63,100 bases of DNA. Source: Candidatus Poribacteria bacterium (GTDB lineage: Bacteria; Poribacteria; WGA-4E; WGA-3G). The stretch is taken from NCBI GenBank assembly GCA_022825665.1, contig JAJDWI010000050.1, forward strand, positions 1-63,100, given 5' to 3'. This document shows, in pieces, positions 364 to 11,982 of the stretch; within the stretch, counting starts at the first letter, position 1; each line of letters opens with the position of its first letter. The notes beneath the pieces were generated by a model. It had not been told where the DNA came from. It did no database searches and saw only the letters and a program-made list of their open reading frames with translations. A program made the translations under genes and the position numbers.

Positions 364-373
364 CATCATTTTA

Positions 374-404
374 TGCAACCTTTTTGTTTCTCAATTGTAT
401 CTAA
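374..404 (+). promoter_or_regulatory. Predicted ECF-type promoter of the sigma-propeller gene
   Basis: The -35-like box TGCAACC (374-380) is followed after exactly 19 nt by TCTAA (400-404). The same TGCAmCC-N19-TCT layout, with the same ATTTTA/CTTTT context, occurs upstream of four other transcription units at 9436, 11189, 11321 and 12019. It lies about 50 nt upstream of the start at 453, suggesting autoregulation. It is predicted from sequence only. Confidence 0.6.
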
Positions 405-452: not shown

Positions 453-3400
453 ATGGTAGAAGACGATGTTCAACTCATACATAAAGTGTTGTCTGGTGAA
501 GATGCTGCATTCAGCACATTAGTGCAGAAGTATCAGAAGAGTGTTCACACATTCGCTTGGCGGAAAATAGGCGATTTCCACTTCGCGGAAGAAATCACGC
601 AGGATACTTTCGTCCAAGTATATCAAAACCTTTCTACACTAAGGAACCCGAAGCTGTTCGCTGGATGGCTCTATGTAATTGCCAACCGTTTATGTATCAG
701 GTGGAGCCAAAAAAGAAAGTCAATATCTCAATCATTAGAGAGCACATCTATGTCAGAAATAGACGCGACTTCATACAATAACTATACATCCGAACAGAGA
801 GATATAGCCTCAACCGAGAGACGACTTGAAATCATAGACAAACTACTGAATAAGCTACCTGAAAGTGAACGCACGGTGATCACGCTATTCTATTTGGGTG
901 AAATGACAGCAAAGGAAATCGGTATGTTCTTAGGTGTATCCATAAACACGATAAAGAGCCGTCTGCGGCGGGCGCGGGAACGGCTAAAGTCTGAGGAAGC
1001 GATCCTCCAAGAAAACCTCAGTTCTATCCAATTCCCGACACAGACAACAGAAAACATCATGAGGAGAATATCCCAACTCAACCCGACAGGATCGTCTGGT
1101 AGCAAACCACTTGTGCCGATAGGTTTATCCGCTGTGTCAGCGATAGTTGTGCTGTTACTGATGGGTGTTGGTGGGACACATCTACATCGTTTCCAAAAAT
1201 CGTATAGTTTGGAGTCCGCATCAGAATCAACGATTGAGATCGTTGACGCACAGCTTGTCTTGGATTCTCCAGCAGAAACAGCGAAACGGCATCAGGTCGG
1301 GGTTTCAGATGTTAGCGGTAAAGATAACGGCACAGAACAGCAACCGGACACATTCCTACTCGCTGCAGCCGACGCAGACGATACAACAAATTCCGATTTT
1401 GACACAGAATGGGTGCAAGCGAAAGGTCCAGAAGGTGGCGCGATAGCAACTTTATTCACAACAACGAATGGTGATGTATTTGCAGGAACATTAAACGGTC
1501 TCTACAGACTTACAGATGACCGCGCCTCGTGGAAACTCATAAATCCTATCAAAGGTCCCTCACCGCCACTACATGATATCCAGAAGTGGTGGTCTATTGC
1601 AGAAAGAAATGGGACACTTTACCTTGCTACCGATAAAGCGATATTGAAATCAACCGATAGAGGTGAAACTTGGAAAATACTTTGTGAAGTTGTAAAAAAG
1701 GATGTCGGGCAACTTGTAGGTATGGTATTGACAGACGGTGAGCAAGGGTCGGATATGACAATCTATCTCGCTTACAGAAATGGTGTTTTCCGAACAGATG
1801 ATCTTGGTGAATCGTGGATACTATTGCTTGATGGATTGGAAGATACAAATATCCGTTCGATTGCTGTTTATCAGGACACAATTTACGCTGGGACGAATAA
1901 AGGATTATATCATCTCAACAGCAATGAATGGGAACAGGTGTTAATTGATCAAGAGAATTTGGATGGTATAACACTTGACATCTCTACGATAGTCGTTGCA
2001 GCAAACAATCTCTATGTTGCGGCACTGAAGGTTGAAGATGATCCCTCTAATGGGATAGACATAGACATAGGAATGGAAATGTTGAAAATGGGTATAGAAT
2101 TACCTCCGTTCACATTTTACCCATCCTCATGGTCGCTATATCGCTTAAATGATCGGGGTGATTCTTGGTCCAATATTACACCGAAACTGGATGCCAAAAA
2201 CAGAAAAGAATACTTCATTCGTGATTTTTCAACTTCCATATACAAGACATTCATCGTTGAAAGTCCATCAATCCAATTAGCAGCATCTGAGGATAAAGTC
2301 TTGATGGTTGCTGGTAATAATCATTTCTACTCAACTGATCTCGGTCAGAATTGGACATATTTAGATAATTTGAGTGATACAAACAATGTTTCAGGGGCAG
2401 TTCTATTGAATGATAACACATTATATAGAAGCGGATTATCTGGAATTCATCGGACAAGCGATGGCGGCACATCATGGGAAAAATTTAACACTGGACTGAT
2501 CAATACATTTGTACATCGGTTGACAAACATTAACGACACGTTATACGCGAACACGGTGGATCTCAGGGTTATGCGTTCTACGGACAACGGTGACTCGTGG
2601 ACACACGTTGATGAGGGTTCACAGAAATACGCTCGTATATTAGAATTTGACGATACACTATACGCAATGAGTAGCACAGAACCCTCCCCAAAACTCTTCC
2701 GATTCTCCGATGCTAAGAATAGGTTCATTGAAATTTCAGATCTGCCAGAAATTGAGGAAGCGGAGACACCGAAACATAATAAAGTTATAGAAAAAGTGTC
2801 ATTAGAATCAGAAAGTTCTGATGATGTAGAAACGCCACAGAAAACAATTGTTCAGAAGATTTATACTGTTGATACTGTGTTATACATGATGACACCGACT
2901 GGAAATTTCGCAGTGAGTCCAACAGCCTACTATGTGGAATATAAACAAAGCCTCTACAGATGGAAACCCGGCACTAAACAATGGTTTAACACCGGACTGA
3001 AAGATACTGGCAAATTTGCTGATGAAGATATCGATCCTCAAGAATTTTTCAGTGCTTACGATCTCGGTTTTAAACTCGCTGTGCTGAGAAATACTGTCTA
3101 TGTAGGAACGCGGGATAAACGGCTCATGCAATCGTTGGATGAAGGCGACACTTGGAACGACGTAACCGCAAATCTTCCGTTTGATGTTGATAGTTTCAAG
3201 GATATTGTCTTTGTAGGGGAAACCGTCTATGTCGCTACGAATCAAGGTGTGGCAAGGTCTACGAATGGTGTTACGTGGGAAGCCATCACGGACATGCAAG
3301 GCGAAACGCTTGTGGTAGATAGGTTTGCTGTGGATGAATCCAACCTCTATGGTCTATCTGATCAGATCGTGTATCAATTGTCCGAGAAATCGGGGACATG

Positions 3401-3521
3401 GCAGCAGGTAGCACCCAAAATCACACATGCCGTTTCTACATTTGAGGTAGATAGGAATACGGTCTACGTGGGGACGCCGGGGCAAGGTGTATTCCGCTTT
3501 TCCCTTGATATTATGGAGTAA
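453..3521 (+). CDS. Membrane-tethered ECF sigma factor with extracytoplasmic Asp-box (BNR) propeller
   Basis: Residues 1-182 are an ECF sigma-70 factor. Region 2 is about 15-85 (EEITQDTFVQVYQNL, GWLYVIANRLCIRW). Region 4 is about 134-182 (LPESERTVITLFYLGEMTAKE, helix-turn-helix with TIKSRLRRARERL). A single hydrophobic helix follows at about 220-241. The remaining ~780 residues carry at least eight Asp-box repeats of the STDxGxTW type (for example STDRGETW, SLDEGDTW), as in BNR/Ycf48-like beta-propellers. With sigma in the cytoplasm and one helix, the propeller should lie outside the inner membrane, making this a one-protein sensor and sigma factor. The ATG at 453 has an upstream GGAG. The next gene (3550) follows after 28 nt and is probably cotranscribed. 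A truncated paralogue lies at 7892-9103. The function of each half follows from family knowledge; coupling between them is inference. Confidence 0.88.
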   Translation: MVEDDVQLIHKVLSGEDAAFSTLVQKYQKSVHTFAWRKIGDFHFAEEITQDTFVQVYQNLSTLRNPKLFAGWLYVIANRLCIRWSQKRKSISQSLESTSMSEIDATSYNNYTSEQRDIASTERRLEIIDKLLNKLPESERTVITLFYLGEMTAKEIGMFLGVSINTIKSRLRRARERLKSEEAILQENLSSIQFPTQTTENIMRRISQLNPTGSSGSKPLVPIGLSAVSAIVVLLLMGVGGTHLHRFQKSYSLESASESTIEIVDAQLVLDSPAETAKRHQVGVSDVSGKDNGTEQQPDTFLLAAADADDTTNSDFDTEWVQAKGPEGGAIATLFTTTNGDVFAGTLNGLYRLTDDRASWKLINPIKGPSPPLHDIQKWWSIAERNGTLYLATDKAILKSTDRGETWKILCEVVKKDVGQLVGMVLTDGEQGSDMTIYLAYRNGVFRTDDLGESWILLLDGLEDTNIRSIAVYQDTIYAGTNKGLYHLNSNEWEQVLIDQENLDGITLDISTIVVAANNLYVAALKVEDDPSNGIDIDIGMEMLKMGIELPPFTFYPSSWSLYRLNDRGDSWSNITPKLDAKNRKEYFIRDFSTSIYKTFIVESPSIQLAASEDKVLMVAGNNHFYSTDLGQNWTYLDNLSDTNNVSGAVLLNDNTLYRSGLSGIHRTSDGGTSWEKFNTGLINTFVHRLTNINDTLYANTVDLRVMRSTDNGDSWTHVDEGSQKYARILEFDDTLYAMSSTEPSPKLFRFSDAKNRFIEISDLPEIEEAETPKHNKVIEKVSLESESSDDVETPQKTIVQKIYTVDTVLYMMTPTGNFAVSPTAYYVEYKQSLYRWKPGTKQWFNTGLKDTGKFADEDIDPQEFFSAYDLGFKLAVLRNTVYVGTRDKRLMQSLDEGDTWNDVTANLPFDVDSFKDIVFVGETVYVATNQGVARSTNGVTWEAITDMQGETLVVDRFAVDESNLYGLSDQIVYQLSEKSGTWQQVAPKITHAVSTFEVDRNTVYVGTPGQGVFRFSLDIME

Positions 3522-3549
3522 TGACGAGGGTTCAAACAAAGGAGGAAAT

Positions 3550-4281
3550 ATGTTCAAACAACTGGATTTCAAAATAATCGGCACTATAGCATTTATTGCT
3601 ATACTTCTCATTGCAGGCACAATCATATATTCGCAATGGAGTTACAAACAATTTGCATCGGAGATTGGTGAGGCACCACAACCCATGACATCAACATCAA
3701 CGGAAACTGAAACACATACCAAACAAACTAAGACGACTCAACCTGTTAACAAAAACATTGAAACCAAACCGAAACCTATGGTGAAATCTCCGTCCGCTAA
3801 TCTCACGGAAGAGAAAGAGGTATCCGCAGAAAAGGCAGAGAAACCGGCATTTGATGCATCAAACCTACTTCCAGCTTTAGGGTTACCTGAAGAGGTCACT
3901 TCGCTTTTGGATGGAGAACCGGATGAAGCAGACTATGAAAAAGCAGAGGAGTATCTACAGGAGAAATACGGTCAATCGTCAGAAGTGACAGCGATAATGG
4001 ATAGGCTGAAAGGAATGTCTGGAGGTCGCGTAGACATTGAGGATATAACTGCCTTGTTTGAGGATTGGATTCAAGTATTGCCTGAAGATCAGCAAGAAAA
4101 TAAGCAGAATTTGATGCGTATCCTTACGTTGCTTCGCGAAAATAAGGGACAGGATGCTGAGGTCTATGTTGTCACTGATTCGAATATGGATCAACTGGAT
4201 CAGATAGATCCAGCTCTGTTAGAAAATGCTAAAGTGGAACAAACAATCATCACGAATATAGAAACAATTCCCGCTGAATAG
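3550..4281 (+). CDS. Membrane-anchored hypothetical protein, partner of the sigma-propeller gene
   Basis: I do not recognise the family. The protein has 243 residues. An N-terminal membrane helix (about 9-28) is followed by a Thr/Lys/Pro-rich linker and an acidic, mostly helical C-terminal half. The ATG at 3550 is preferred over an upstream in-frame start at 3487 because GGAGG sits directly upstream (3541-3545) and because the longer form would overlap the sigma gene. The position right behind the tethered sigma factor suggests cotranscription from the promoter at 374 and a role in the same envelope pathway, possibly as a partner or regulator. That role is inference. Confidence 0.75.
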   Translation: MFKQLDFKIIGTIAFIAILLIAGTIIYSQWSYKQFASEIGEAPQPMTSTSTETETHTKQTKTTQPVNKNIETKPKPMVKSPSANLTEEKEVSAEKAEKPAFDASNLLPALGLPEEVTSLLDGEPDEADYEKAEEYLQEKYGQSSEVTAIMDRLKGMSGGRVDIEDITALFEDWIQVLPEDQQENKQNLMRILTLLRENKGQDAEVYVVTDSNMDQLDQIDPALLENAKVEQTIITNIETIPAE

Positions 4282-4510: not shown

Positions 4511-6307
4511 ATGAAATTGATACAATTCCTTTCAATGCGAATAATTCTGGTGTTAGCAGGAATCCTTGCTTGCGGTTGTCTGCTATCCAATGCCCAAGAA
4601 CTGCCCATCCACGAGAAATTTTCCACGGTTCAAGTAATTGTCCAAACAGACGACGGTGCGTTTGGTAGCGGTAGCGGCTTTTTCATTCGCCAAGACCTAA
4701 TCGCCACCAACATTCACGTCGTTGCGGGAATTCACAGAAAAGCGGTAAGTTGTAGGGCAAAACTAATAAATCAACCTAAAGACTACACAATCACTGGGGT
4801 CGTGGCGAGTGATCCGGAACACGATTTGATTATCTTGAAGGTTGATGGGCAAAACCCAAATGTGCTACAACTTAGCGACAGTGATAATGTGGCTCTTGAC
4901 GATGAAGTTACCGCAATAGGCACACATGGGAATGAGACGAGTGCAATCGTGAAAGGCACAATCAACCGAATTACACCTAACTTATTTCGGGTAAAAGCAG
5001 CACTTCCTAAAGGTTTTAGCGGTGCTCCCGTCCTAAATAACGATGGAGATGTGATCGGAATTTGTGTAACGGGTGGCGATAACGAAAGATATGGATATGT
5101 GGTGCCGTCAAACTATCTCAATGCATTGTTGAAAGATATACCCTTACAGGTTCAGTCTTTGGAAAACTGGCGAAAACAGCCGTCTATCCGTGCTTATGGA
5201 ATAGTCATTCAAGCGGATGAACATAGACGATTCGGTGAATATGAGGATGCTATTAAAAGTTATGATTCCGCTATATTTTTACTGCCAGATTTTGCTGTCG
5301 CTTATTCTAAACGCGCCTCCGCAAAGATAAATTTGAAAGACTATAAAGGGGTTATCAAAGATTATGACACAGCAATTCTTTTGGGGGAATCGGATGTTGG
5401 TATCTACATAAATCGCAGTGTTGCGAAAAGGACTTTAGGGAATTATATCGGGGCATTAAAGGACTGCGAAACTGCTATACAACTGGATCCAGAGAACATT
5501 GAGGCGTATCTAAACCGTGGAGATACACATGCGAAATTGAGAAACTACGAAATAGCGATACAGGATTACAACACTGCAATTAACCTAAATCCCGATGGTG
5601 TCCTCCATGCTTTGCTTTACCTCAAACTGGCTGATGCTAAATCTAAATTTGGACAAAAAAAGAGTGCTGTTGAGAATTACAATAAAGTGATTGAACTTCA
5701 ACCGAACAACGCCAGCATTCTAACAGTCGCATATCTCAATCGTGGTATTACGAGGTTGAATTTAGAGGAGTTTGAGAGTGCTATCAAAGACTTAGACGAG
5801 GTTATCCGTATCAAACCGAACAACGATTTTCTACGAACCGCATACATCAACCGTGCTGAAGCGAAGTCTAAATCGAATGACAATCTCGGCTCTATCAAGG
5901 ATTATAGCGATGCTATCCGTCTATTCCCACCAAATACCGATGCCACTGCTGACATCTATAGCAAACGTGCCGCTGTGAAGGTTGCCTTGTCTGACAATAT
6001 CGGGGCAATTGAGGATTGTAATACCGCTATACAAATTGCCCCTGACCTGTCGGAAACGTATAAGATCCGTGGCGATGCGAAATACAATCTGCATCGGTAT
6101 AAAGAAGCAATCGAGGACTATAATACGGCTATCTATCTACAGCCTGATTTCGTTGCTGCATACTATAAACGTGGGAAAGCAAGGATTGAAATAGATAACG
6201 TGTTAGCTGCTAAGGTTGATTTCCGGACAGCTTTGAAGTTTGCCAAAGGTGAAGACACACAATACCTCCAAGATGAATATGATAAGACGGTGCGTCTCTT
6301 AAATTGA
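4511..6307 (+). CDS. Exported trypsin-like serine protease with C-terminal TPR repeats
   Basis: The protein has 598 residues. An N-terminal signal peptide ends near SNA-QE (residues 26-30). A chymotrypsin-fold protease domain covers about 32-205. The triad is visible as H69 (ATNIHVVAG), D105 (EHDLIILK) and S170 in GFSGAP, where most HtrA-type enzymes have GNSGGP. From about 210 to the end there are about ten 34-residue TPR units, such as AIKDYDTAI or AIEDYNTAI. No PDZ domain is seen. It is probably a periplasmic or surface protease whose TPR array binds partners or substrates. No substrate can be named. It may be terminated by the hairpin at 6344-6365. It shares its protease type with the WD40-protease at 49495-51951. 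Confidence 0.85.
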   Translation: MKLIQFLSMRIILVLAGILACGCLLSNAQELPIHEKFSTVQVIVQTDDGAFGSGSGFFIRQDLIATNIHVVAGIHRKAVSCRAKLINQPKDYTITGVVASDPEHDLIILKVDGQNPNVLQLSDSDNVALDDEVTAIGTHGNETSAIVKGTINRITPNLFRVKAALPKGFSGAPVLNNDGDVIGICVTGGDNERYGYVVPSNYLNALLKDIPLQVQSLENWRKQPSIRAYGIVIQADEHRRFGEYEDAIKSYDSAIFLLPDFAVAYSKRASAKINLKDYKGVIKDYDTAILLGESDVGIYINRSVAKRTLGNYIGALKDCETAIQLDPENIEAYLNRGDTHAKLRNYEIAIQDYNTAINLNPDGVLHALLYLKLADAKSKFGQKKSAVENYNKVIELQPNNASILTVAYLNRGITRLNLEEFESAIKDLDEVIRIKPNNDFLRTAYINRAEAKSKSNDNLGSIKDYSDAIRLFPPNTDATADIYSKRAAVKVALSDNIGAIEDCNTAIQIAPDLSETYKIRGDAKYNLHRYKEAIEDYNTAIYLQPDFVAAYYKRGKARIEIDNVLAAKVDFRTALKFAKGEDTQYLQDEYDKTVRLLN

Positions 6308-6427: not shown

Positions 6428-6543
6428 TAGGCGCGCTTTGATGAAGATTAAGAAATAAATTCGGTAAGTTATTATTGAAGTCCAGCGCGCTTACAAAGCG
6501 CGCCTACAGGTTTTGGGGACATTAATATTACCGAAAGAATAAA
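6428..6543. repeat. MITE-like palindromic element, copy B, interrupted by the IS
   Basis: The left arm is TAGGCGCGCTTTGATGAAG...TTCGGTAA. The middle is a different palindrome with GCGCGC on both sides. The right arm begins at TTACCGAAAGAATAAA and stops at 6543, where the inverted repeat of the IS starts. The expected continuation TTAATCTTCATG...GCGCGC is missing and is not found on the far side of the IS. Confidence 0.75.
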
Positions 6544-7895
6544 CTGATATTTATCAGACCACATCAGAAATCAATGTTTATCAATGTTTAGTTGGTATTT
6601 GTTCATGAAAATGCTCACTGAGATCAGACAGCATCTGCCTTTTTCCTGAAAGTTCAAGTTGTATCTGATGGAATGTTTTCCGTGTCAAACGGCTTACGTG
6701 TTGCATCAAGAGATAACTCAGGATTTTGACACCTAAACCTATATACGCACCTTGTCTGCCTTCTAAACTTATTTTTGAAAGTTTCAAATCTGTTTTCAGG
6801 TGTCGCCAAAGTTGTTCTATACCGTGGTGTTGATACCATATTCTGAGTATTTCACTGGATCGTAAGGGTTTTCCAAAGACCAGCATCGTTCTGATTTTGC
6901 CCATATCCATAAAGAAGAGTATGACAAGTGAACCAAATGTCTGACTTATGGCTTGCGTGCGATAGTGGGGTTTGTCACATCCCCACTGTTCCGATTTCAG
7001 TTCTATCCGCTTTTTGTGTTGTGAGAGTTTAGCAGTTTCGTTATCAATATCCATGACATAATTACTTTTTCCGTGGATGAGTATGCGATCAAACCCAATA
7101 TCAGACAAACTTTCAACGAGTTGGTGACTGCCATACCACGAATCAAAAGTGATCGGATATTTTCTGAGGTCTACACCGGATGCGTCAAAGATATCTAATA
7201 CCTCTTTGAGCATCACAATAAAACAAGAGAGTTTATCCGTGTTGCCTCTCCCTTGTTTACTAACAATACAAATGTTGAGGGGGATGATCATATGACCGAT
7301 CTTTATGGTGATGCCTAACACATTTCGTCCCTTTATGACGTTATTATGTTTTTTAGACCACCACTTATAGCAGTAGGAGAGTAGTTTACCATAGCGCGGA
7401 TCATTTGTATCATCTACACTCATTGTGATGCGACGACGGGATTGTGTAGAAGCACTTTTTGTTTCGGCATCTTGCACCTCAGCGATAGCGACAGCACATC
7501 CAATACGCATCAGTAGACACTTCCACTGATAAAGACTGAGGCTTTTCAGATGCCGATAAAGCGTAGCAGTCGGGATCGCCAAGGCAGTTGCCAATTGATG
7601 CGGATTGTAGAGCCCAAACAGATGACCGGTTGAAAGCAAAAGCAAGACTTCTCGCAGTTGTGATGTCATCTTTCGAAAGTTAGAATAGAGAAGTATTTGA
7701 AAATACATAGCTGATTTGATAAGATGTTGTTGCATGGGATAGCCTCCTAAAAGGAATAGGTGAACTTTTACCATTTAGGATGGTATCTCATGCACTAAAA
7801 GTCAAGAAAAATTTAAAACAAAACGCATTTTCATAGCGTTTTACATGCTAAAGGTTGATGGCTATTAGGTTAAACGCTATTCTGAGAAATATCAG
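6544..7895 (-). mobile_element. IS4-superfamily-like insertion sequence
   Basis: The element is bounded by 15-bp terminal inverted repeats, CTGATATTTATCAGA at 6544-6558 and its complement with one mismatch at 7881-7895. It carries one transposase gene on the minus strand. No target-site duplication is seen. The left flank lies inside MITE copy B and the right flank inside a sigma-propeller gene, so the two flanks do not belong to one original target. This fits an IS-mediated adjacent deletion or rearrangement. Length is about 1.35 kb. Confidence 0.8.
6581..7735 (-). CDS. DDE transposase (IS4/IS701-like)
   Basis: The protein has 384 residues when started at 7735, where GGAGG (7743-7747) sits 7 nt upstream; a longer in-frame start at 7774 lacks such a site. 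Probable catalytic residues are D108 or D109 (SVDDTNDPRYG), D198 (ITFDSWYG) and E307 in a YQHHGIEQLWRHLK segment. That segment resembles the Y-R-E-K signature of IS4-type enzymes, with His in place of Arg. An N-terminal helix-turn-helix-like part (LATALAIPTATLYRHLK) precedes the DDE core. The frame is intact, so the element may be active. The exact IS family needs a database comparison. Confidence 0.87.
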   Translation of the reverse strand: MQQHLIKSAMYFQILLYSNFRKMTSQLREVLLLLSTGHLFGLYNPHQLATALAIPTATLYRHLKSLSLYQWKCLLMRIGCAVAIAEVQDAETKSASTQSRRRITMSVDDTNDPRYGKLLSYCYKWWSKKHNNVIKGRNVLGITIKIGHMIIPLNICIVSKQGRGNTDKLSCFIVMLKEVLDIFDASGVDLRKYPITFDSWYGSHQLVESLSDIGFDRILIHGKSNYVMDIDNETAKLSQHKKRIELKSEQWGCDKPHYRTQAISQTFGSLVILFFMDMGKIRTMLVFGKPLRSSEILRIWYQHHGIEQLWRHLKTDLKLSKISLEGRQGAYIGLGVKILSYLLMQHVSRLTRKTFHQIQLELSGKRQMLSDLSEHFHEQIPTKH

Positions 7896-9103
7896 AATAT
7901 TTTCCATGTTTCGCCATCGTCTGTCGATACTAATATATTATCGGTATTGACAAGATAAAAAGTGCTTTGATGCTCAGTTATAATAACATTAAATGTTCCA
8001 ACAGGAACGTTTGAACTGATATTTGTCCAAGATGTCTCATCTTCAGTTAATTTATAAATGCCAGTTGATGTAAATGTATAAAGATTATTTTCTGAAGTCG
8101 CGAAGATATTATACACTCGAGGACCTGGTGGTCCATTTTCCTGTGTCCAGTCTGAAGTTAACGTTTTCGCAAAATTGTCTCGGACATTCGTATTTGCGTC
8201 TGCTTCAGAAACTTGTGAACCAATCCCTTTATTTTGAGTATTAATAATATTTCTCCCAACTTTATTTTCCAAAGTTGGTATTGAAACAATATCCAAGATT
8301 ATAGGTGATTCAGTAATTTCGATTGTAGGTTCAGATACAACATCAAAATTATATGGTTGTTGAAAGCGAGTGATATATTGGTTCGATGCTCCAATTGTTA
8401 ATATAAACAAAACGAGAGCGGTCCCAAAAGCAGCCCAAGGCAAGACTGGTTTCGCAACCGTCGATTCGGGTTTCAGGACATCGATCTTCCGCATTATGTT
8501 TTCAGTTAGATCGGTAGATAATTGTAAACTTCTAAGAGTTTCACTGAGCAAGAGTTCCTCTTTTAATCGTAAGCGATTCCGCGCACGTCTAAGTTTGCTT
8601 TTAACAGTGTTTACTGAGATGCCTAAAGTTTGGGATACTTCCTTCGCAGTCATTTCCCCAAGATGATACAGGATAAAAACCGTCCGTTCACTTTCTGGTA
8701 ATTTGTCCAGAAGTTTTTTGACAATTTCACGGTAATTTTCAATAGTTTCTGTCTCACGATGCTCTGATTCGTAGTCCATATAATAAACTTCTTCCAATAC
8801 CTCTTTTGGAGTATTTTGTAGTGACTGTGTATTAAATTTGTTTTTCTTTATCCAATCAATGCAAAGTCTATCAACAATAACATAAAGCCAACCGTTAAAT
8901 CGTTTTGGATTTTTGAGGGAAGATAGTTTTTTGTATACTTGAAGAAATGCATCTTGGGTTATTTCTTCAGCAATGTGATAGTCGTGAATCTTTCTCCATG
9001 CAATCGCGTGAACTTTCTTTTGATATTTCTGTACTAAAGTAGCAAATGCTTCTTTGTCACCATCCAAAATCTTATGAATCAGGACAATATTATCTCCTTC
9101 CAT
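7892..9103 (-). CDS. Truncated membrane-tethered ECF sigma factor (3' end removed by IS)
   Basis: The 403-residue product is a paralogue of the protein at 453-3521 with the same plan: sigma region 2 (EEITQDAFLQVYKKL, GWLYVIVDRLCIDW), region 4 (LPESERTVFILYHLGEMTAKE, TVKSKLRRARNRLR) and one membrane helix (about 226-245). Only the first one or two Asp-box repeats remain. The frame ends at DDGETWKIF, and the TGA is supplied by the IS terminal inverted repeat (7892-7894 within 7881-7895). About 600 residues of propeller are missing. The sigma domain and membrane anchor look intact, so a protein without its sensor could still be made. The start at 9103 has GGGGAGAT just upstream. The predicted ECF promoter lies far upstream at 9436-9467, with MITE copy C in between. 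Confidence 0.8.
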   Translation of the reverse strand: MEGDNIVLIHKILDGDKEAFATLVQKYQKKVHAIAWRKIHDYHIAEEITQDAFLQVYKKLSSLKNPKRFNGWLYVIVDRLCIDWIKKNKFNTQSLQNTPKEVLEEVYYMDYESEHRETETIENYREIVKKLLDKLPESERTVFILYHLGEMTAKEVSQTLGISVNTVKSKLRRARNRLRLKEELLLSETLRSLQLSTDLTENIMRKIDVLKPESTVAKPVLPWAAFGTALVLFILTIGASNQYITRFQQPYNFDVVSEPTIEITESPIILDIVSIPTLENKVGRNIINTQNKGIGSQVSEADANTNVRDNFAKTLTSDWTQENGPPGPRVYNIFATSENNLYTFTSTGIYKLTEDETSWTNISSNVPVGTFNVIITEHQSTFYLVNTDNILVSTDDGETWKIF

Positions 9104-9206: not shown

Positions 9207-9346
9207 GCCGCGCTTTGATGAAGATTAATTTATTAATTCGGTAATTTTAGGGAAACTCCAGTGCGGTTAGGAAACCGCACCTACCATTTTAAGTTTAGGG
9301 AAAATTAGAATTACCGAAATATTTTCTTAATCTTCATTAAGCGCGC
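9207..9346. repeat. MITE-like palindromic element, copy C
   Basis: The left arm is CCGCGCTTTGATGAAGATTA...TTCGGTAATTTTA. The centre is GTGCGGTTAGGAAACCGCAC, the central hairpin in the opposite orientation from copy D. The right arm is ATTACCGAAAT...TTAATCTTCATTAAGCGCGC. It lies between the truncated sigma gene and its predicted promoter. Confidence 0.85.
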
Positions 9347-9435: not shown

Positions 9436-9467
9436 TTAAGACTGAATTTTAGGTCAAAAAGGGTGCA
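9436..9467 (-). promoter_or_regulatory. Predicted ECF-type promoter facing the truncated sigma gene
   Basis: On the minus strand TGCACCC (9467-9461) is followed after exactly 19 nt by TCTTAA (9441-9436). It matches the four other sites in this island. The sigma gene start at 9103 lies more than 330 nt downstream. MITE copy C occupies 140 nt of that distance, so the long leader is probably the result of a later insertion. Confidence 0.5.
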
Positions 9468-9635
9468 AAAAAATAAAAAAGTGCAAAAAGATAAAACGGT
9501 AATACGAGAGTTGGATATTTTTAGAGCAAATAGAACTTACAATATTTCATTAAATTAAATGGGACTTAAGCAATTATCACGATTTCTCAAAATATTATGG
9601 CTAAAATGTCATGATTTTCAAGAGAATTGTGGGTT

Positions 9636-9777
9636 TAGGCGCGCTTTGATGAAGATTAATTTATTAATTTGGTAATTTTATACATTCCCAATCTTGGTAG
9701 GTGCGGTTTCCTAACCGCACCGGACTTTGATGTAATATTACCGAATCTATTTTTAATCTTCATGTAAGCGCGCCTAC
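9636..9777. repeat. MITE-like palindromic element, copy D (complete)
   Basis: Long imperfect inverted repeats of about 40 bp run from TAGGCGCGCTTTGATGAAG to CTTCATGTAAGCGCGCCTA. They flank a perfect central hairpin, GGTGCGGTT-tcct-AACCGCACC. The sequence is nearly identical to the inner copy at 48071-48210, which suggests recent spread. Confidence 0.88.
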
Positions 9778-10399: not shown

Positions 10400-11146
10400 T
10401 TATTTTTTTAGGTTTAGAAATTCGTAGGGATCAATTCCCCCGTTTCCAATCATGATATCCGATGGAATGTCGCTCTCAACAAGTCGACCTTTCTGTCGTT
10501 CCATTCCCCTGAGAAATTGTCCTGTGAAAGGGTCACCGCGGATACCGGATACTACTTTCTCCTCAGTTCCATCTGGAAGCACCTTATGCTCCCATTCAAT
10601 ATAAACCGTCCCGGGAATAGTAGGATATACCAATCCATCCGCCATCATTCCACCGATTGAACGTGTCCCTTGTTTCCAGAGTTTGACAGCAACACGATGC
10701 ATTAATTCAGTATCTGAACTCATAAAATCGGGATAGTTCCAAAGATCTTGCGCTGGGTAATCAGATGGTAATTCAGGATATGGACCGAAACCGTGAGGAG
10801 AAACAGCAGCGATCTTTTTATTTTCTTGAGCCTGTTGTGTCACGCTTGGTAAACCCTCAGTAGAAAGTGAGTTTGTCTCGTCAACTTTGTCAGTTGTTTT
10901 GGTTATAGATTTTACTGCGGGACGTGCTGTGCTTTCCGCAGGGAATTTGGTTACTTCTTTGGTCATGTTATTGGCGGTTGTCTTATGGGCTATTTTCGAT
11001 TGCAGTAACTGTTTTTCTGCCTTAGCTGCCGCTTGCCTATCTGCTGTCGTATCGTGTTGATACCACAAGAGACATGCAACGAATAGGATAATCAAAAATC
11101 CCGCACCACCAAGAATCCATTTACTTGTAAAAAAATCGCGGTACAT
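10400..11146 (-). CDS. Membrane-anchored hypothetical protein
   Basis: The family is not recognised. The protein has 248 residues. An N-terminal membrane helix (about 12-29) is followed by a charged linker of about 90 residues and a C-terminal globular part with motifs such as GPYPELPSDYPAQDLW and VYIEWEHKVLPDGTEE. GGAGG sits 7 nt upstream of the ATG. The topology matches the anchored protein at 3550-4281 (short cytoplasmic end, helix, long linker), though I see no clear sequence identity. It leads the operon with the gene at 9817-10386. The predicted ECF-type promoter lies 43 nt upstream. Confidence 0.72.
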   Translation of the reverse strand: MYRDFFTSKWILGGAGFLIILFVACLLWYQHDTTADRQAAAKAEKQLLQSKIAHKTTANNMTKEVTKFPAESTARPAVKSITKTTDKVDETNSLSTEGLPSVTQQAQENKKIAAVSPHGFGPYPELPSDYPAQDLWNYPDFMSSDTELMHRVAVKLWKQGTRSIGGMMADGLVYPTIPGTVYIEWEHKVLPDGTEEKVVSGIRGDPFTGQFLRGMERQKGRLVESDIPSDIMIGNGGIDPYEFLNLKK

Positions 11147-11188: not shown

Positions 11189-11220
11189 TTAAGACTGAAT
11201 ATTTTGTTCAAAAGGGTGCA
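11189..11220 (-). promoter_or_regulatory. Predicted ECF-type promoter of the 11146-9817 operon
   Basis: On the minus strand TGCACCC (11220-11214), 19 nt, TCTTAA (11194-11189). It lies 43 nt upstream of the start at 11146. It is arranged divergently with the matching site at 11321-11353, so one 302-bp gap carries two outward-facing copies. Confidence 0.65.
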
Positions 11221-11320
11221 TAAAATGAATCTTAATGAGTATGCTATTAGTTACTTGGGTTATTGCTGCTACAGATAAATGACAATTTAGCTATGATGAT
11301 AAACCCATATTTTCATTTTA

Positions 11321-11353
11321 TGCACCCTTTTCATCTTAAATTTCAGTCTATAA
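11321..11353 (+). promoter_or_regulatory. Predicted ECF-type promoter of the DUF4268-like gene
   Basis: TGCACCC (11321-11327), 19 nt, TCTATAA (11347-11353), with the upstream context CATTTTA shared with the site at 12019. It lies 95 nt upstream of the TTG start at 11449. Confidence 0.62.
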
Positions 11354-11448: not shown

Positions 11449-11982
11449 TTGTTTAAAAATATCTTTAAAAGAAAGATTAGTAGAAATAACTCAGATAATT
11501 CACAAAATGAAACAACATTTAATAGGCAATTCTATGACCAATTTTGGAACGATTTTGGCAATTACTTAATTCACAATGGAAGCCAGCTAAAACCATTCAA
11601 AGAGCCTTACAATTTTTATGGAGAAGACAATAGATATACGTATGCTGGTATTCATTTCGGAGCATTTGAAGAAGAGCCGATATGGCTTATAGGATGGACG
11701 GATGTTATTAATGGAAGAATTGCTGCAAAACTTCGTTTCAGAAACTTGGACTCACTATTTGATCAATTAAAGGAAGACCAGGAATCTATTCATGCTTTTT
11801 TTGGTAGTAATTTGGAATGGGACAAACCGCCAAACAAAAGTGTAGGATTATATAAAAGTTCGATTGATTTCGGCAATACCTCCAGTCATGGAGAATTATT
11901 CGAGTGGCTACGTGAAAACTTTGAGAAGTTAGAAAGGGTTTTTATGTGGAAACTCGCCTCATACTATGTTGATAACAATTAA
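11449..11982 (+). CDS. DUF4268-like protein
   Basis: The protein has 177 residues. From about residue 29 on it fits the DUF4268 pattern: an early FYDQFWNDFGNYL helix, a central beta sheet (YAGIHFGAF, IWLIGWTDV), the LEWDKPPNKSVGLYKS segment, and the end HGELFEWLRENFEKLERVF. This fold is often found near restriction or defence genes and is thought to be nuclease-like, but its activity is not known to me. The TTG start is supported by GGTAGGAGG (11436-11443) with 5 nt spacing. It appears monocistronic under the ECF-type promoter at 11321. Confidence 0.72.
   Translation: MFKNIFKRKISRNNSDNSQNETTFNRQFYDQFWNDFGNYLIHNGSQLKPFKEPYNFYGEDNRYTYAGIHFGAFEEEPIWLIGWTDVINGRIAAKLRFRNLDSLFDQLKEDQESIHAFFGSNLEWDKPPNKSVGLYKSSIDFGNTSSHGELFEWLRENFEKLERVFMWKLASYYVDNN

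Follow-up and report, generated by a model that had tools for sequence, protein, structure and literature searches.

A putative Poribacteria-specific family of single-chain transmembrane ECF sigma factors with exchangeable ectodomains and private promoters

The window analysed here, i.e. the whole stretch of 63,100 nucleotides of contig JAJDWI010000050.1 (Candidatus Poribacteria bacterium, assembly GCA_022825665.1, positions 1 to 63,100), carries at 453-3521 an intact gene for a protein in which an extracytoplasmic function (ECF) sigma factor, a predicted transmembrane (TM) helix and a large Asp-box ectodomain follow one another in one chain. Poribacteria are sponge symbionts, and the source, a metagenome-assembled genome (MAG) of 4.53 Mb, yielded 49 sigma region-2 matches over the cut-off. 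The gene and its parts were delineated as follows, model confidence being given as the predicted local distance difference test score (pLDDT).

369..402, + strand: predicted own ECF-type promoter, TTTTATGCAACCTTTTTGTTTCTCAATTGTATCT, with -35 TGCAACC at 374-380 and -10 GTATCT at 397-402 (bipartite motif from the de novo search; position -84, 19.5 bits)
453..3521, + strand: membrane-anchored ECF sigma factor with Asp-box ectodomain, as predicted (ATG start, intact open reading frame, 1022 amino acids)
519..719, + strand: sigma region 2, residues 23-89 (Pfam Sigma70_r2, 5.6e-11), with the putative -10-reading residues R83 and Q86 (covariation)
828..986, + strand: sigma region 4, residues 126-178 (Pfam Sigma70_r4_2, 6.8e-15), with the putative -35-reading residues N165, K168, S169 and R172 (covariation)
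1044..1079, + strand: conserved linker helix LTENIMxxI, residues 198-209, after sigma-4 (AlphaFold2 helix, block pLDDT 84-88; conservation)
1113..1169, + strand: predicted TM helix, residues 221-239, overlapping the conserved KPxxPW at 218-223 (hydropathy, conservation, charge bias)
1170..1301, + strand: conserved, presumably extracytoplasmic stalk FQxPYS..A.SE.TIEIVDxPIV..KPxxRNQxG, residues 240-283 (119 non-redundant members; the same whatever the ectodomain type)
1410..3512, + strand: GH74-like Asp-box propeller ectodomain, residues 320-1020 (AlphaFold2, Foldseek, profile match)

The initial annotation of this DNA had proposed an intact ECF sigma factor with regions 2 and 4, and the Pfam matches to both indeed lie in an unbroken frame; regions 3 and 1.1 were absent, the sigma70-ECF superfamily was matched above cut-off in Pfam and NCBIfam, and a Pfam Sortilin-Vps10/BNR Asp-box signal was located C-terminally to both sigma regions. 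The single membrane helix that it had placed between sigma and propeller also held as a prediction, residues 221-239 being the sole strongly hydrophobic segment of the protein (Kyte-Doolittle mean 2.46). Across 239 family members, lysines plus arginines numbered 3.1 before and 1.8 after the helix, with net charges of +1.1 and -2.0, respectively, a bias that fits sigma inside and sensor outside, and so a predicted topology of cytoplasmic sigma, one membrane helix and extracytoplasmic ectodomain. Orthologues carrying the same propeller without a TM segment (L012, L095, L111) and cytosolic siblings fused to the sliding clamp DnaN would suit another arrangement, namely a hydrophobic segment that is not inserted and a propeller working in the cytoplasm, as has been put forward for the WD40 extensions of group ECF57; set against the strong hydropathy and charge bias of family members, the nearly invariant motifs flanking the segment and the signal peptides on many ectodomain twins (see below), it appears quite improbable.

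The large C-terminal fusion was confirmed, while its description was refined by modelling. The AlphaFold model of the chain, made with 13 paralogues, was of moderate confidence (mean pLDDT 67.6); sigma region 2 (~80-89) and most propeller blocks (70-94) were usable, and residues 205-317, which include the stalk, scored below 50. When Foldseek was run with the ectodomain model, GH74 xyloglucanases came out best (E ~1e-22, ~840 columns, ~14% identity), followed by the sensor domains BT4673 and BT4663 of Bacteroides hybrid two-component systems (HTCS), and a sequence-profile match to 2cn2 (1.7e-20) agreed with the GH74 fold. These matches make two propellers in tandem, as in GH74 xyloglucanases with their seven-bladed Asp-box pairs, more probable than the single Asp-box propeller of ~780 residues first described, of which the Asp-box fold is retained. 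From these enzymes and sensor domains, with which it shares the fold as judged from the model, the window ectodomain differs in being fused to a sigma factor.

A search for the architecture beyond the window found the linker-helix-stalk module at 23 places in the source genome, and the sigma-linker-helix-stalk module in 68 of 85 Poribacteria genomes, single-contig ones included, a single genome having as many as 63 copies. The copies were concentrated in one taxonomic family, with few elsewhere in its order and none outside the order among the 85 Poribacteria genomes examined, and the best 79 loci listed from named genomes were all from Candidatus Poribacteria; further matches lay beyond these 79, so other phyla may carry the module too. 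Whatever the ectodomain, the 119 non-redundant members conserve LTENIM, K218-P219-x-x-P222-W223, G238, F247-Q-x-P250-Y251, E258, E262, K275-P276 and RNQxG. The source MAG is fragmented into 170 contigs, which might have let mis-assembly join a sigma gene to a propeller gene, the artefact that would have undone the initial annotation; the many copies within this MAG and its relatives, the recurrence of the architecture across tens of independent MAGs, the single-contig genomes and the named Candidatus Poribacteria contigs count against such a chimera and leave it practically no chance. Consistent with the early claim that no separate anti-sigma factor is involved, neither an adjoining zinc-finger/TM anti-sigma gene nor a zinc-finger motif in the linker was found in any of 270 related fusions, and a zinc-finger anti-sigma in either place was rejected on this count. 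We consider it likely that the 453-3521 protein belongs to a family of transmembrane sigma factors, each a single chain, that is specific to Poribacteria, a judgement that covers the whole explanation developed below, with promoters, sensing and release. The text of two Poribacteria genome papers, as far as covered by a term search, does not mention sigma factors (PMC3909097, PMC5087111), and the literature searched contained no description of these fusions; its coverage was incomplete, so the group may have been mentioned before.

De novo motif analysis upstream of the family genes revealed AATTATGCAaCC-N12/13-aTtGCGTCa, which has the form of an ECF promoter (core TGCAaCC-N16/17-GCGTC). At a presence threshold of at least 12 bits, the motif preceded 71.7% of 251 family genes versus 4.9% of 1376 other genes at the same loci, and it was found in no shuffled sequence. 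Based on 187 sigma/promoter pairs (~107 effectively independent), mutual information connected the sigma-4 residues K168, S169, R172 and N165 with -35 bases and the sigma-2 residues R83 and Q86 with -10 bases (z 4.1-10.4), K168 and S169 (-35) and R83 and Q86 (-10) leading with z 6.5-10.4, and A153 within the same sigma-4 domain formed an additional pair with a -35 base (z 6.0). The strongest pairs sit where structure predicts that a sigma factor reads its promoter. When promoters were swapped between similar proteins, none of 1000 trials reached any of the ten leading covariation values, this null being looser than a full phylogenetic one in that repeated swaps can drift beyond nearest neighbours. 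At residue 83, the accompanying bases were CGCG for A, TGCG for T, TGTG for N and TGTA for R; the 453-3521 protein combines R83 with a TGTA promoter, and this promoter fits the R83/Q86/K168 code. Thus, own promoters and covariation at the expected reading residues point to genuine sigmas that are autoregulated and each have a private code, and the covariation is evidence for active, autoregulated sigma domains. Together with the architecture, it bears out the initial view that sensing, anchoring and promoter recognition are joined in one chain.

The promoters of non-family genes carrying the motif were closer in code to their nearest sigma than shuffled ones (mean distance 3.45 versus 4.29, p=1e-4, 42 pairs), in a test that used mainly the coupled positions and in which some pairs are possibly recent promoter duplicates; an earlier cognate-code test on 28 pairs was weak (p=0.028). 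As promoter bases are matched to reading residues, each sigma probably boosts expression of the gene that encodes it and also switches same-code neighbouring genes, many of which encode exported or membrane proteins.

By grouping 210 distinct complete fusions by their ectodomains, 120 Asp-box, 27 WD40, 12 Kelch-like (our own label from the sequence), 12 leucine-rich repeat (LRR), five M16 and other types were distinguished. On a tree of the sigma parts, parsimony required 43 changes of ectodomain class, against a minimum of 9 and 89 after shuffling, indicating that the ectodomain has been swapped repeatedly. Among the LRR members (L077-L079, L103, L114), the sigma fusion at L079 also carries a GHL15 glycosidase-like domain.

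In most classes other than Asp-box and WD40, an adjoining gene, nearly always on the same strand, encodes a homologue of the ectodomain, and in most classes this twin protein bears an N-terminal signal or TM segment. Twins accompanied 5 of 5 M16 fusions (null 0.1), 9/12 LRR (0.5), 4/4 carboxypeptidase-regulatory/lectin (CpD; 0.06) and 3/3 regulator propeller fusions (Reg_prop; 0.03), as well as 8/9 of class 4 (0.5; mostly without a recognisable signal), 3/4 of class 7 and 10/27 of WD40 (4.3). In the five M16 pairs (L014, L066, L139, L190, L200), every exported twin keeps the zinc motif HxxEH (HLIEH), and every sigma-fused copy has lost it (NLIMH, NLIMR, SLIMH, HLVSS, HLINH), by which the sigma-fused copies are catalytically dead as read from sequence. 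Where the ectodomain is a copy of an exported neighbour, the chain probably senses what the exported protein acts on or binds. Exported twins of the Asp-box class stayed at chance level, and some candidates looked like family members minus the sigma part, one of them (L131) retaining a stretch of the stalk-to-propeller linker.

That the ectodomain is itself a surface effector or adhesin, with a sigma that only secures its expression and no sensing, would accord with the strong autoregulation, the lack of a twin excess among Asp-box fusions and their tandem genes, 46 of 157 lying within 1.5 kb of another fusion. We judge it unlikely, since the promoter code is common to neighbouring genes, the catalytic motif is gone from the sigma-fused M16 copies, and TM-less and cytosolic siblings exist.

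In the mechanism that we favour, a ligand or partner would bind the ectodomain outside the cell, the signal would pass through the conserved stalk and the membrane helix, and the sigma, presumably inactive until then, would be freed, most likely by regulated intramembrane proteolysis with a cut in the stalk followed by a site-2 protease; once released, it would activate the gene that encodes it together with the surface genes paired to it. Release upon ligand binding is our inference, and for the window protein a sponge-host glycan or glycoprotein may be guessed as the ligand from the modelled fold. The source genome encodes a site-2 protease, which suits release better than the exported trypsin-tetratricopeptide repeat (TPR) protease encoded at 4511; the latter, initially suggested as the partner, was dropped, being neither conserved near other family members nor present among family-promoter neighbours. 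The main rival is that the sigma acts while membrane-bound, like ToxR/CadC, rearrangement or oligomerisation of the ectodomain exposing it uncut to the polymerase. The inside-sigma/outside-sensor topology would serve this, the confidently modelled linker helix just after sigma-4 could mask or present the sigma, and no dedicated protease is conserved beside the family. On the other side, a sigma must accompany the polymerase to many promoters and through initiation, which is awkward for a tethered one. IutY, a characterised case in which sigma and TM anti-sigma are fused, is switched on by proteolysis (PMC8999054). We regard membrane-bound action as possible and the less likely of the two.

Several observations weigh against the explanation as a whole. 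The stalk was modelled at very low confidence and stayed unfolded also in a deeper 320-residue model, and about a quarter of the family genes have no recognisable upstream motif. The TM-less Asp-box orthologues in three genomes imply that membrane anchoring is not universal and that the same domains can occur unanchored. Exported twins of the Asp-box class, at 10 of 120 fusions versus 13.4 under the null, are not above chance, so the twin argument touches the window protein only by family analogy.

Extensions at the C-terminus, TM and carbohydrate-binding parts among them, have been described for the ECF sigmas ECF48/52/53, IutY and ECF57 (PMC8999054, PMC8103513), and comparison by their defining features, i.e. 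the ZAS zinc finger, the FecR domain and the ECF57 cysteine pair, found none of these here. Groups ECF48, ECF52 and ECF53 (e.g. SCO4117; PMC8999054) likewise hold sigma, TM helix and extracytoplasmic sensor in one chain, the ECF52 sensor being carbohydrate-binding, and the TM helix after the sigma domain is present in the Poribacteria family by prediction and conservation. They differ in being actinobacterial, in their ZAS zinc-finger anti-sigma and in regulatory extensions of up to ~400 residues, and their HxxxCxxC zinc finger between sigma and TM was found in none of the 270 Poribacteria fusions. IutY of Pseudomonas putida (ECF243) also joins sigma and TM part and is activated by Prc/RseP proteolysis (PMC8999054), the model favoured for the Poribacteria family; its FecR-type domain gave no Pfam match in the window protein. 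ECF57 resembles the family in the order of sigma and propeller, with WD40 extensions as in several Poribacteria siblings, and differs in that it is proposed to work through protein interaction of the extension (PMC8999054); the cysteine pair suggested to connect its sigma-2 and sigma-4 was not seen, C81 alone being conserved and sigma-4 having no conserved cysteine.

A further likeness is to the SigI/RsgI systems of Clostridium thermocellum (PMC4711584, PMC12203970), which comprise several paralogous autoregulated sigmas together with membrane sensors whose extracellular domains are interchangeable and akin to the enzymes under control, and in which the regulated genes have promoters similar to that of the cognate sigma itself. 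A relation of this kind, between a sensor and a putatively regulated exported protein, was seen in several non-Asp-box classes, not in the Asp-box class of the window protein. The pairing of an exported M16 enzyme with a dead sensor copy resembles RsgI6, whose GH10 domain has very low activity (PMC4711584). In SigI/RsgI, however, sigma and TM anti-sigma are two proteins and RsgI cleaves itself in the periplasmic domain, whereas the Poribacteria fusions are single chains with an ECF-type sigma, no anti-sigma found and no RsgI-type domain by Pfam.

Around the gene, the following features were assigned.

3487..4281, + strand: downstream gene that overlaps the 3' end of the sigma gene and encodes a small protein with one TM segment (relatives beside further Asp-box fusions, twice at L107)
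6538..7901, - strand: IS701-like insertion sequence (IS) element (transposase 6581-7774; terminal inverted repeats 6538-6558/7881-7901)
7892..9103, - strand: second family member, 403 amino acids, with sigma, TM and propeller start (3' end cut by the IS)
9439..9472, - strand: promoter-like site TTTTTTGCACCCTTTTTGACCTAAAATTCAGTCT, presumably of the second sigma (repeat D3, motif family; ~340 bp upstream, gene assignment by inference)
10400..11146, - strand: small protein with one TM segment, which the second sigma is predicted to control (same-code promoter)
11192..11225, - strand: same-code promoter TGCACCC..CAGTCT before gene 10400-11146 (15.3 bits)
11316..11349, + strand: same-code promoter TGCACCC..CAGTCT before gene 11449-11982 (+) (12.7 bits)

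The initial annotation had counted two paralogues within 9 kb. A second family member does exist; cut by the IS701-like element, it makes the pair one intact and one truncated gene. The uncommon code TGCACCC..CAGTCT is common to the 9439-9472 site and the promoters of 10400-11146 and 11449-11982, and small single-TM proteins resembling 10400-11146 and 3487-4281 recur beside Asp-box fusions. Short interspersed repeats like miniature inverted-repeat transposable elements (MITE), partly inverted, flank both sigma genes (187-259, 6432-6472, 9209-9249, 9640-9746). Elsewhere, a membrane protein starting MLxTxIQKE.MHHILS.RFVALL recurs, often near fusions and with a family promoter (L059:2469-3869, L087:2143-3543 and L192:608-2008 on the - strand).

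Sigma fusions were also observed to proteins of the cell interior. In several genomes a complete DnaN is joined to the sigma core of the family, the TM being absent (L004:4634-6391, L260:1845-3578, L261:3251-5002 on the - strand); most relatives keep a separate DnaN, and in G000 (95% complete) the fusion is the only DnaN match. A sigma from a different ECF group is joined to a copy of FtsZ (L018:2541-6566 on the - strand, L255:1648-5946, L258:2502-4295, L266:2899-4554), with additional PHP/DNA polymerase III alpha domains at L018 and L255 (1341-1432 amino acids), and open reading frames of similar length with an FtsZ_C match occur in many Poribacteria beside a normal-sized FtsZ elsewhere in the genome. 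A DnaN-FtsZ fusion of 693 amino acids without sigma lies at L259:3426-5507 (- strand).

More tentatively, and as a conjecture whose prospects we put somewhat short of even, Poribacteria may follow a general scheme, in which an ECF sigma carries a non-functional copy of a protein and reports on the surroundings of that protein, be it exported (M16, LRR, WD40, regulator propellers, lectins) or, in the siblings, internal (DnaN; FtsZ with DNA polymerase III alpha). The sigma would control both the gene that encodes it and the genuine twin by means of a promoter code that is private and able to evolve. The twin pattern suggests how such sensors could originate, namely that an exported protein is duplicated, its signal peptide is replaced by the sigma-TM module and its activity is lost; the fusion of a sigma to a copy of an exported neighbour would, if confirmed, be new in principle. 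Dozens of sigmas per cell must avoid cross-talk, and the residue-to-base code by which they may do so is readable from the 187 pairs. Single-chain transmembrane sigmas without an anti-sigma factor would give these bacteria a very short path from surface sensing to promoter choice.
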